A stretch of 64,000 bases of DNA from Jiangella gansuensis DSM 44835 (GTDB taxonomy: Bacteria > Actinomycetota > Actinomycetes > Jiangellales > Jiangellaceae), in contig NZ_KI911782.1 in assembly GCF_000515395.1 (NCBI RefSeq), positions 3,098,606 to 3,162,605 of the forward strand, given 5' to 3'. Positions 11,000 through 13,601 of this stretch are shown here, piece after piece. Both the position numbers and the translations under genes were made by a program. Under the pieces are notes generated by a model. It searched no databases and was not told the origin of the DNA. It worked only from the letters and a program-made list of their open reading frames with translations. Position 1 is the first letter of the stretch. Every line of letters starts with the position of its first letter.

Positions 11000-11956
11000 A
11001 TGGCCACTGAAGGTGGTACCAAGGCAGTCCTCGCCGCGCTCCTGGCCAACACCGGCATCGCGATCACCAAGTTCATCGCGTTCGCACTGACGGGGGCGTC
11101 CTCGATGCTCGCCGAGGCGGTGCACTCCGTCGCCGACGCCGGCAACCAGGTGCTGCTGCTGGTCGGCGGCCGCCGGGCGCAGCGCAAGGCGACGCCGGAG
11201 CACCCGTTCGGCTACGGCCGGGTGCGGTACGTGTTCGCGTTCATCGTGTCCATCGTGTTGTTCAGCATCGGTGGCCTGTTCGCGCTGTACGAGGCGTACC
11301 ACAAGTACGAAGAGGTGCACGCCGGTCACCCGAACGAGCTGCTGGAGAGCCGGTGGTGGTGGGTGCCCATCGCGGTGCTGGTCGCCGCCATCATCATGGA
11401 GACGTTCTCGCTGCGTACCGCGGTCATCGAGTCGAACCGGGTCCGTCAGGGCGCCTCGTGGGTGCGGTTCGTACGCCGGGCGAAGTCGCCGGAGCTGCCG
11501 GTGATCCTGCTCGAGGACATCGGTGCGCTGCTGGGCCTGGTGTTCGCTCTGATCGGCGTGGGCATGGCCCTGATCACGGACAACGCGTACTGGGACGTCG
11601 CCGGTACCGCGGCCATCGGGGTGCTGCTGGTGATCATCGCCGTCATCCTGGCCATCGAGATGTCCAGCCTGCTGATCGGCGAGGGCGCGGCGGCGGAGAA
11701 CGTCAAGGCCATCCACGCCGCGGCGATCGCCGGCGACGACATCGGGCGCGTCATCCACCTGCGCACGCTCTACACCGGCCCGGAGGAGTTGCTGGTGGCG
11801 GCGAAGCTGGCGGTGCGTCGCGACCAGACGGGCGAACAGATCGCCGCGGCCATCGACGGCGCCGAGGCGCGCATCCGGGCGGCGGTGCCGGAGGCCACCC
11901 ACATCTACCTCGAACCCGACCTCGACCGGGCCGCACGCTCCGCGCCTTCCCCATGA
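11000..11956 (+). CDS. Cation diffusion facilitator (CDF) family metal transporter
   Basis: The 318-residue membrane protein has the CDF layout: about six transmembrane helices up to residue 230, then a cytoplasmic tail of about 85 residues. Helix 2 has [12 protein letters not shown] and helix 5 has EDIGALLGL, placing the metal-coordinating His/Asp and Asp residues of the transport site. A loop with [10 protein letters not shown] follows helix 2, as in ZT_dimer-type CDFs. It should export Zn, Mn, Co or Fe by proton antiport; the metal cannot be told. The ATG at 11000 is preceded by a GAAGGAAC ribosome site. The stop codon lies inside a 56-bp palindrome, so transcription may end there before ahcY. 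Confidence 0.85.
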
Positions 11957-12006
11957 TCATCAAGAGTTGACCCGGCCATCACCGGGCCAACTCTTGATGA
12001 TCATGG
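11951..12006. repeat. Type C 56-bp palindrome overlapping the CDF stop codon
   Basis: The arms 11951-11975 and 11982-12006 begin CCATGATCATCAAGAGTTG. They pair over 25 bp with one G:T-type mismatch around a 6-nt loop. The TGA of the CDF gene (11954-11956) is inside the left arm. It would form a very stable hairpin between the CDF gene and ahcY and probably ends transcription, although there is no T-tract. Confidence 0.85.
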
Positions 12007-12018
12007 GAGGCGGGGGAG

Positions 12019-12024
12019 TAAACT
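12019..12024 (+). promoter_or_regulatory. Candidate -10 box (TAAACT) for ahcY
   Basis: TAAACT fits the NANNNT -10 pattern and lies just after the type C palindrome. It would give a leader of about 120 nt before the ATG at 12153. Confidence 0.45.
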
Positions 12025-12060
12025 CGGCGGCGACCACACCGGCGCAGGTGATGCCGCGGA

Positions 12061-12145
12061 CTCAGATGGGTCGCGCCGGGTCGGACCGTTCGGCGCTGTC
12101 CTGCCGTGCCCGCCGTCCGACCCATCAGTCATCCGCTGAGAGGAA
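12061..12145 (+). promoter_or_regulatory. Structured ahcY leader with two mutually exclusive stems
   Basis: GATGGGTCG (12065-12073) pairs with CGACCCATC (12118-12126), and GGGTCGGA (12078-12085) pairs with TCCGACCC (12116-12123). The two right halves overlap, so only one stem can form. An outer stem CTCAG (12061-12065) with CTGAG (12136-12140) would cover the first bases of the GAGAGGAA ribosome site (12138-12145). This is the geometry of a regulatory leader. It does not match the SAH or SAM aptamers as I know them, and the ligand is unknown. Confidence 0.4.
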
Positions 12146-12152
12146 CTGTCCC

Positions 12153-13601
12153 ATGTCCGTCGACTTCAAGGTCGCTGACCTGTCGCTGGCCGAGTTCGGC
12201 CGTCGTGAGATCCGCCTGGCCGAACACGAGATGCCCGGTCTGATGGCCATGCGCGCCGAGTACGGGGAGAGCAAGCCGCTGACCGGTGCCCGCATCACCG
12301 GATCGCTGCACATGACCGTGCAGACCGCGGTGTTGATCGAGACGCTCGTGGCGCTCGGCGCCGAGGTCCGGTGGGCGTCGTGCAACATCTTCTCCACCCA
12401 GGACCACGCGGCCGCGGCGATCGCGGTCGGCCCGGACGGCACGGTGGACGCGCCGGCGGGGGTGCCGGTGTTCGCCTGGAAGGGCGAGACGCTGGAGGAG
12501 TACTGGTGGTGCACCGAGCAGGCTCTACGGTGGCCCGACACTGGTTCTGGCTCTGGCGGCCCGAACATGATTCTCGACGACGGCGGCGACGCCACGCTGC
12601 TGGTCCACAAGGGCGTCGAGTTCGAGAAGGCCGGTGCTGTCCCGGCGCCGGCGGAGGGCGACCCCGACGAGTGGCGGGTCGTGCTGGGGGTGCTGCAGCG
12701 GTCGCTGGCCGAGGCCCCCGGCCGCTGGACGGCGATGGCTCAGGAGATCAAGGGCGTGACCGAGGAGACCACGACCGGGGTGCACCGTCTCTACGAGATG
12801 ATGCGCGACGGGGCGTTGTTGTTCTCGGGGATCAACGTGAACGACTCGGTCACGAAGAGCAAGTTCGACAACAAGTACGGGTGCCGGCACTCGCTGATCG
12901 ACGGCATCAACCGGGCCACCGATGTGCTCATCGGCGGCAAGGTCGCGGTGGTGTGCGGCTACGGCGACGTCGGCAAGGGGTGCGCGGAGTCGCTGCGCGG
13001 TCAGGGCGCCCGCGTCGTGGTGACCGAGATCGACCCGATCTGCGCGCTGCAGGCGGCCATGGACGGCTACGAGGTCACCACACTCGACGACGTCATCGAG
13101 CGGGCCGACATCGTCATCACCGCGACCGGGAACCGCGACGTCATCACGGCGGAGCACCTGTCGCGGGCCAAGCACCAGGCCATCATCGGCAACATCGGTC
13201 ACTTCGACAACGAGATCGACATGGCCGGTCTGGCCGCGGTGCCGGGTGTGACACGCACGGAGATCAAGCCCCAGGTGCACGAGTGGCGGTTCCCCGACGG
13301 GCACACCGTGATCGTGCTGTCGGAAGGCCGGCTGCTGAACCTCGGCAACGCGACCGGGCACCCGTCGTTCGTGATGTCGAACTCCTTCACCAACCAGGTC
13401 CTGGCCCAGATCGAGCTGTTCACGAAGAGCCAGGACTACCCGCTGGGCGTGTACACGCTGCCCAAGCATCTGGACGAGAAGGTGGCCCGGCTGCACCTGG
13501 ACGCGCTCGGGGTGAAACTCACCGAGCTGACCCCGGCTCAGGCGGGCTACCTCGGCATCCCGGTCGACGGGCCGTACAAGAGCGAGCACTACCGCTACTG
13601 A
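12153..13601 (+). CDS. ahcY: Adenosylhomocysteinase (S-adenosyl-L-homocysteine hydrolase)
   Basis: The cytosolic enzyme reversibly splits SAH into homocysteine and adenosine, removing the inhibitor made by SAM-dependent methylation. It uses tightly bound NAD. The 482-residue protein has the substrate-domain signatures [16 protein letters not shown] and [14 protein letters not shown], and the Rossmann motif GYGDVGKG followed by [14 protein letters not shown]. The C-terminus KSEHYRY contains the Lys and Tyr that complete the NAD site in the family. The frame is open further upstream, but ATG 12153 has a GAGAGGAAC ribosome site and starts the conserved [10 protein letters not shown]. It converges on the RDD gene with an 8-bp gap. 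Confidence 0.95.

Follow-up and report, generated by a model that had tools for sequence, protein, structure and literature searches.

The ahcY locus and its leader core

The window (the whole 64-kb stretch of DNA analyzed here, from a Jiangella genome of one contig and 5,585,780 bases) carries ahcY, encoding adenosylhomocysteinase, behind a leader whose upstream neighbor encodes a CDF-family cation transporter. SAM-dependent methylation is inhibited by its product, which AhcY removes. A long palindrome (11950-12008), which starts with ATGATCATCAA and ends with TTGATGATCAT, lies in the interval from the cation transporter gene to the ahcY promoter; a similar palindrome with a different middle is found at the same place in another genome (G005; palindrome loci L012 and L021). 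The genome has a second ahcY (G000:C1:2143784; locus L350, G000:C1:2139200-2143900, and L030), which stands behind metH (TIGR02082, 1506 bits) and a sugar/nucleoside kinase-type gene. No leader core of the kind described below precedes it: the best match in that locus (24.4 bits) is on the opposite strand and beyond the gene.

The core of the leader is a stem, P1, that encloses two small hairpins, A and P2 (Table 1); leaders near that of the window have the consensus CCGGCGC AGGTGATGCCGCG GACCC AGAT GGGTC GCGCCGG. The segment between hairpin A and P2 varies in length across leaders. Hairpin A, which is not part of our covariance models, has stems that differ (GGGU/ACCC in 49 leaders, GGG/CCC in 20, and others), while its loops are kept, with GAU, GAUG, or AGAU. 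Its stem score is ≥9 in 82% of leaders versus 20% of shuffled segments; the window's own hairpin A scores 7, under that line, being short here and longer, with other stems, in other families.

The first-pass annotation of this DNA had proposed a candidate RNA switch of unknown class in the ahcY leader, with two mutually exclusive stems between 12061 and 12152. A leader RNA that matches no Rfam family is indeed present, and it is conserved and covaries across families. Its anatomy is a different one: what is kept beyond the genus is P1 with hairpin A and P2, which the annotation did not describe. The core overlaps the proposed stems on their upstream side, and in the leader alignment the strongest conservation lies upstream of them.

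Table 1. Features of the ahcY leader, in window coordinates
Feature	Position	Strand	Basis or remark
-10-like box TAAACT	12019..12024	+	TAnnnT box; transcript start inferred near 12030
Conserved leader RNA core (R1/R2 match)	12036..12081	+	62.4 bits with R1; window is in the R1 training set
P1 5' strand CCGGCGC	12039..12045	+	alignments, covariation
Hairpin A, GGT-GAT-GCC	12047..12055	+	inside P1; 3 pairs (one T-G), loop GAT
P2 5' strand GACTC	12059..12063	+	alignments, covariation
P2 loop AGAT	12064..12067	+	xGAx in 93 of 94 leaders
P2 3' strand GGGTC	12068..12072	+	alignments, covariation
P1 3' strand GCGCCGG	12073..12079	+	alignments, covariation
P3 5' strand (second stem of the first-pass annotation)	12078..12086	+	genus-level support only
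P3 3' strand	12115..12123	+	genus-level support only
Probable ribosome site GAGAGGA	12138..12144	+	sequence
ahcY, adenosylhomocysteinase	12153..13601	+	TIGR00936, E 1.4e-190

Distribution and covariation of the core

A search at the DNA level recovered the leader from all 12 genomes of the genus that were compared (its own included) and the first part of it from 1 of 10 genomes from other genera of the family (G018); all 13 of these leaders lie upstream of ahcY. Two more distant matches (L014 and L015), away from the ahcY of their genomes, were left unused. Reading of two sets of ahcY leaders (80 and 100) brought out leaders from other families, three Nocardioides leaders (L075, L090, and L102) included, that share this architecture but have different stems. 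A pattern descriptor composed after the leaders had been viewed, and used as a lead only, fitted 30 of 192 leaders versus 6 reverse-complemented and 2 reversed ones; of the 30, 8 looked chance-like by eye and 12 came from the genus.

We searched with two covariance models, R1 (15 leaders aligned without structure) and R2 (30 sequences). Over 393 genomes of the class, R1 gave 33 matches in 32 genomes, 31 of them directly upstream of ahcY; of the other two, one is undecidable (contig end) and one is not at ahcY. Among the best 30 of the 33 matches, ahcY is next on the same strand in 29 and one lies at a contig edge; the matches in G143 and G169 also precede ahcY, and that in G278:C15 lies inside the frame of another gene. 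Because the R1 training sequences were all ahcY leaders, the fair count is that of matches outside both the training set and the genus: 12 in 11 genomes, with 10 at ahcY, 1 undecidable, and 1 elsewhere.

R2 gave 84 matches in 78 of the 119 genomes of family f32, and 77 of the 84, including three training sequences, are directly upstream of ahcY. Seven of eight genomes of family f9 matched as well, all seven being already in the R2 training set. A phylum-wide sample yielded matches in 8 of 396 genomes. Four of these matches lie at ahcY, namely those in the window, in G065, and in two genomes of another class; the other four do not. Within that other class, 3 of 66 genomes matched, two at ahcY and one with no ahcY in the 273 nt before the contig end. 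This makes at least 107 non-overlapping ahcY-linked copies (31 + 74 + 2) in families f1, f9, f26, f28, f32, f39, and f71, six of which belong to the Actinomycetes and one to another class. Model matches without ahcY were L245 and L254 to L258 (L258 being the same place as L341) and, in f32, L296, L323, L326, L333, L335, L336, and L337. The spread is patchy: at the threshold used, 361 of the 393 class genomes and 41 of the 119 f32 genomes have no core match.

The leader core is almost certainly a real RNA element. When 15 leaders were aligned by MAFFT without structure, pairing held in 92.3% of cells, with a covariation score of 0.371 versus 0.189 in shuffled alignments (reached by 0 of 500; all shuffle statistics given here ignore the relatedness of the sequences) and at most 0.099 when the structure is slid along the alignment. 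RNAalifold, not supplied with the structure, predicted 11 of the 13 pairs of P1 and P2 from these leaders. Counts of doubly changed pairs and of pair types were no better than shuffles at this depth (equaled in 101 and 110 of 500); with 30 leaders, the two measures were reached by 11 and 253 of 500 shuffles, and with 94 ahcY-linked leaders by 0 and 3 of 500. In the 94-leader alignment, which was fitted to the model and is hence biased towards the modeled structure, 89.5% of cells pair (slid versions, at most 57.3%), and the covariation score is 0.184, versus 0.114 for shuffles (none of 500 reached it) and no more than 0.053 for slid versions; double changes occur in 8 of the 13 pairs, including all five of P2. 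This alignment (A9) omits near-identical ahcY-linked rows (L277, L280, L285, L290, L317, and L338 to L340), as well as L102, L182 (a partial match), L233 (contig end), and most Jiangella copies, of which five were kept.

Position of the core and pairing downstream

All of the first 30 leaders have a TAnnnT box no more than 25 nt upstream of the core, versus 11% of shuffled stretches; in a larger set, 90 of 92 leaders have one, and it stands 4 to 10 nt before the modeled core in 86. A scan for the sigma-70 consensus that required a -35 box found no promoter in the window leader. With a -10-like box just upstream of it, the core probably starts at the first bases of the ahcY transcript. Core and start codon are separated by 24 to 146 nt (median, 35), and by no more than 45 nt in 64 of 92 leaders; this spacing and the lack of a terminator-like site in 11900-12300 would favor control of translation over control of termination. 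A reading frame that runs through the core, and in the window is open into ahcY, was also considered and was rejected: among relatives, the distance from core to start codon occurs in each of the three phases, and the loop ATGs are not conserved.

Folding of 92 leaders with the core as a soft constraint increased the openness of the ribosome site in 10, decreased it in 21, and left it unchanged in the rest, so that no consistent coupling between the core and the ribosome site emerged. Without constraint, the mean ensemble probability of the core is 0.51 over the 92 leaders and 0.17 in the window, and the window leader folds about as stably as expected from its composition (z = -1.17; 33 of 200 shuffles are equally or more stable). 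The missing coupling, and a core at the probable 5' end, would suit a constitutive stem-loop that protects the mRNA or keeps the ribosome site open and senses no signal. We consider this explanation unlikely, since loop bases are kept while stems change and since a general stabilizer need not be tied to one gene, as this element is.

Downstream of the core, both pairings proposed in the first-pass annotation are present in the sequence: GATGGGTCG (12065-73) with CGACCCATC (12118-26), and GGGTCGGA (12078-85) with TCCGACCC (12116-23), the latter extendable by one pair (12086/12115). They compete with each other because GGGTCG is present twice, 10 nt apart. Their fates on comparison differ. In 13 leaders (12 from the genus and 1 from the family), the second stem, P3, is 95.7% paired and has one double change (T-A to C-G, in 2 sequences); its covariation score was matched by 4 of 500 shuffles, and 151 of 500 had at least as many doubly changed pairs. 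The first stem is 87.9% paired and has no double change, its covariation score was equaled in 500 of 500 shuffles, pair 12067/12124 forms in 4 of 12 leaders, and the outer pairs are not kept. The covariation that had been expected among related ahcY leaders is thus found in P1 and P2 and, mildly and within the genus, in P3, and not in 12065-73/12118-26. The annotation's outer stem across the ribosome site is possible on paper (CTCAG, 12061-65, with CTGAG, 12136-40) but peculiar to the window sequence, because the remaining 12 of the 13 leaders have C in place of T12062. A ligand-sensing switch confined to Jiangella, in which 12065-73 and 12078-86 alternate for 12115-26, therefore seems quite improbable to us: both stems can form and P3 is kept in the genus, but its would-be partner is not above shuffles.

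P3 covers the last two bases of P1, so exchange between P1 and P3 is possible in Jiangella. In other lineages, a per-leader test for P3 or another downstream hairpin was no better than shuffles: downstream hairpins in f32 scored a mean of 8.65 versus 7.26 shuffled, but only 1% of the leaders ranked within the top 5% when compared with their own shuffles, and none of the 7 Nocardioides-type leaders tested yielded a P3-like hairpin. In several leaders of that type, a CUCC...GGAG hairpin that covers the ribosome site can be seen by eye.

Known RNA classes and the candidate ligand

Searched with Rfam 15 at gathering score, the 64-kb window has a single match, the tmRNA gene (RF00023; 58430-58801, + strand; 146.2 bits), and none on the ahcY leader. 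With E values up to 10 allowed, 11900-12300 gave six sub-threshold matches to microRNA families, all on the palindrome, and no SAH or SAM family. Nor was an SAH or SAM family found up to E 5 in 13 diverse leaders, or any Rfam family at gathering score in 20 whole loci (four with the present core), and no covariance model of the SAM-binding riboswitch classes in Rfam 15 was matched by the leader. The annotation, which saw no match to the SAH and SAM classes, was right in this: none reaches threshold. We found no paper on such an ahcY leader RNA in actinobacteria in a search with most subscription journals and preprints outside it; "uncatalogued" here means absent from Rfam 15 and from the literature so searched.

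The class closest in context is the SAH riboswitch, RF01057, a methyl-cycle leader RNA for which ahcY is a known target in other bacteria (PMC2864571) and which is reported from Mycobacteriaceae too (PMC3766115). The present leader shares that setting, lying directly upstream of the SAH-recycling gene ahcY. Unlike those RNAs, however, the present leaders do not match the model, and actinobacterial RF01057 precedes metH in the loci read. RF01057 is above cut-off in 7 of 197 class genomes, and 26 have a match at E up to 0.01. NCBIfam identifies the following gene as metH in six scanned loci (L342, L343, L344, L346, L347, and L348), and reading of the translation does so in L345, L349, and L351 to L354, several of these latter loci being below cut-off. 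One genome (G062) has an RF01057 match before metH and a partial, weak core-type match before ahcY (L182, 21.4 bits). That the leader is a diverged member of a known SAH or SAM class, as its sharing a downstream gene with many SAH riboswitches could suggest (PMC2864571), is very improbable given the searches above and given that RF01057 has no match in the 10 genus genomes listed, yet finds metH leaders elsewhere in the class. The SAM-Chlorobi motif (RF01724) is likewise a leader RNA that stands before ahcY and metK operons (PMC2864571); unlike the present leaders, it is reported from Chlorobi only, and it is not among their Rfam matches.

Two small hairpins with kept loop bases could also be a protein-binding site, recognized through the two GA loops by an RNA-binding regulator that controls translation of ahcY or the life of its mRNA. 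ANTAR-target RNAs, which use paired hairpin loops with kept bases, are widespread in actinobacterial leaders, and the rule given for them is a pair of hairpins whose loops of six bases carry an A at position 1 and a G at position 4 (PMC8164766). In the present leaders, by contrast, P2 closes a loop of four bases; if its closing pair is opened, the first base of the enlarged loop is C in 90 of 94 leaders and G in 4, and the loops of hairpin A are mostly GAU or GAUG. The ANTAR rule thus does not describe them, and we think a protein-bound leader rather unlikely. To our knowledge, the hairpins of ANTAR-target RNAs are not enclosed by a P1.

Riboswitches are in general expected to be RNA folds that are conserved, covary, and lie in the 5' leaders of metabolic genes, as this one does. 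The leader RNA is very probably a cis-regulator of ahcY, and we lean slightly towards its being a putative metabolite-binding RNA. Our preferred reading, to which we give a probability of about 0.5 on the strength of gene context, is that it is an uncatalogued ahcY-linked riboswitch for SAH or a neighboring metabolite. The 5' end of the ahcY mRNA would carry a cis-acting RNA in which P1 encloses hairpin A, with its GAU loop, and P2, with its xGAx loop; the junction with the two GA loops would bind a small methyl-cycle metabolite, with the AhcY substrate S-adenosylhomocysteine as the likeliest one, and binding would alter use of the nearby ribosome site. In Jiangella, P3, overlapping the end of P1, could be the switching partner. 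SAH as the ligand is a tentative suggestion from gene context. It is possible, and more doubtful, that the RNA forms a new SAH-responsive class unrelated to RF01057, defined by P1 and two GA-loop hairpins and controlling ahcY in several actinobacterial families, while other actinobacteria use different uncatalogued ahcY leaders and RF01057 serves metH.

An RNA tied to the single gene ahcY is a clean candidate, with a ligand that can be guessed and directly tested. Should it sense SAH, it would be an independent means by which RNA detects this molecule, with a compact core of ~46 nt that could also serve in methyltransferase assays.

Other ahcY leaders of the sets read are conserved in different ways. 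The leader of Streptomyces/Kitasatospora type (21 sequences: L036 to L042, L044, L047, L048, L050, L053 to L056, L060, L061, L063, L064, L119, and L212) is ~90 nt long and strongly conserved; its proposed parts are a P1, a UGAUGG hairpin, and a variable hairpin, where most of the pair changes are found. The three members searched (L037, L039, and L041) have no Rfam match at gathering score. A second conserved block, around CGAAGCCTCG, occurs in 17 leaders (L045, L058, L065, L085, L086, L088, L092, L098, L120, L124, L125, L127, L129, L133, L141, L152, and L180); RNAalifold gives it only a three-pair hairpin without covariation, so a structure is unsupported there. Both types resemble the present leader in being sequence-conserved before ahcY, with the searched members below Rfam gathering score, and differ from it in having no overlapping R2 match in the 23 loci tried; the best same-strand R2 match inside them (14 bits, E 0.97) lies away from the conserved block. 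The similar order of parts in the Streptomyces-type leader is a lead only. A further form, GGGCTGACA...TGTCAGTWGACCCCAGCCC, is common to the ahcY leaders L083 and L114 of two distant metagenome-assembled actinobacteria.
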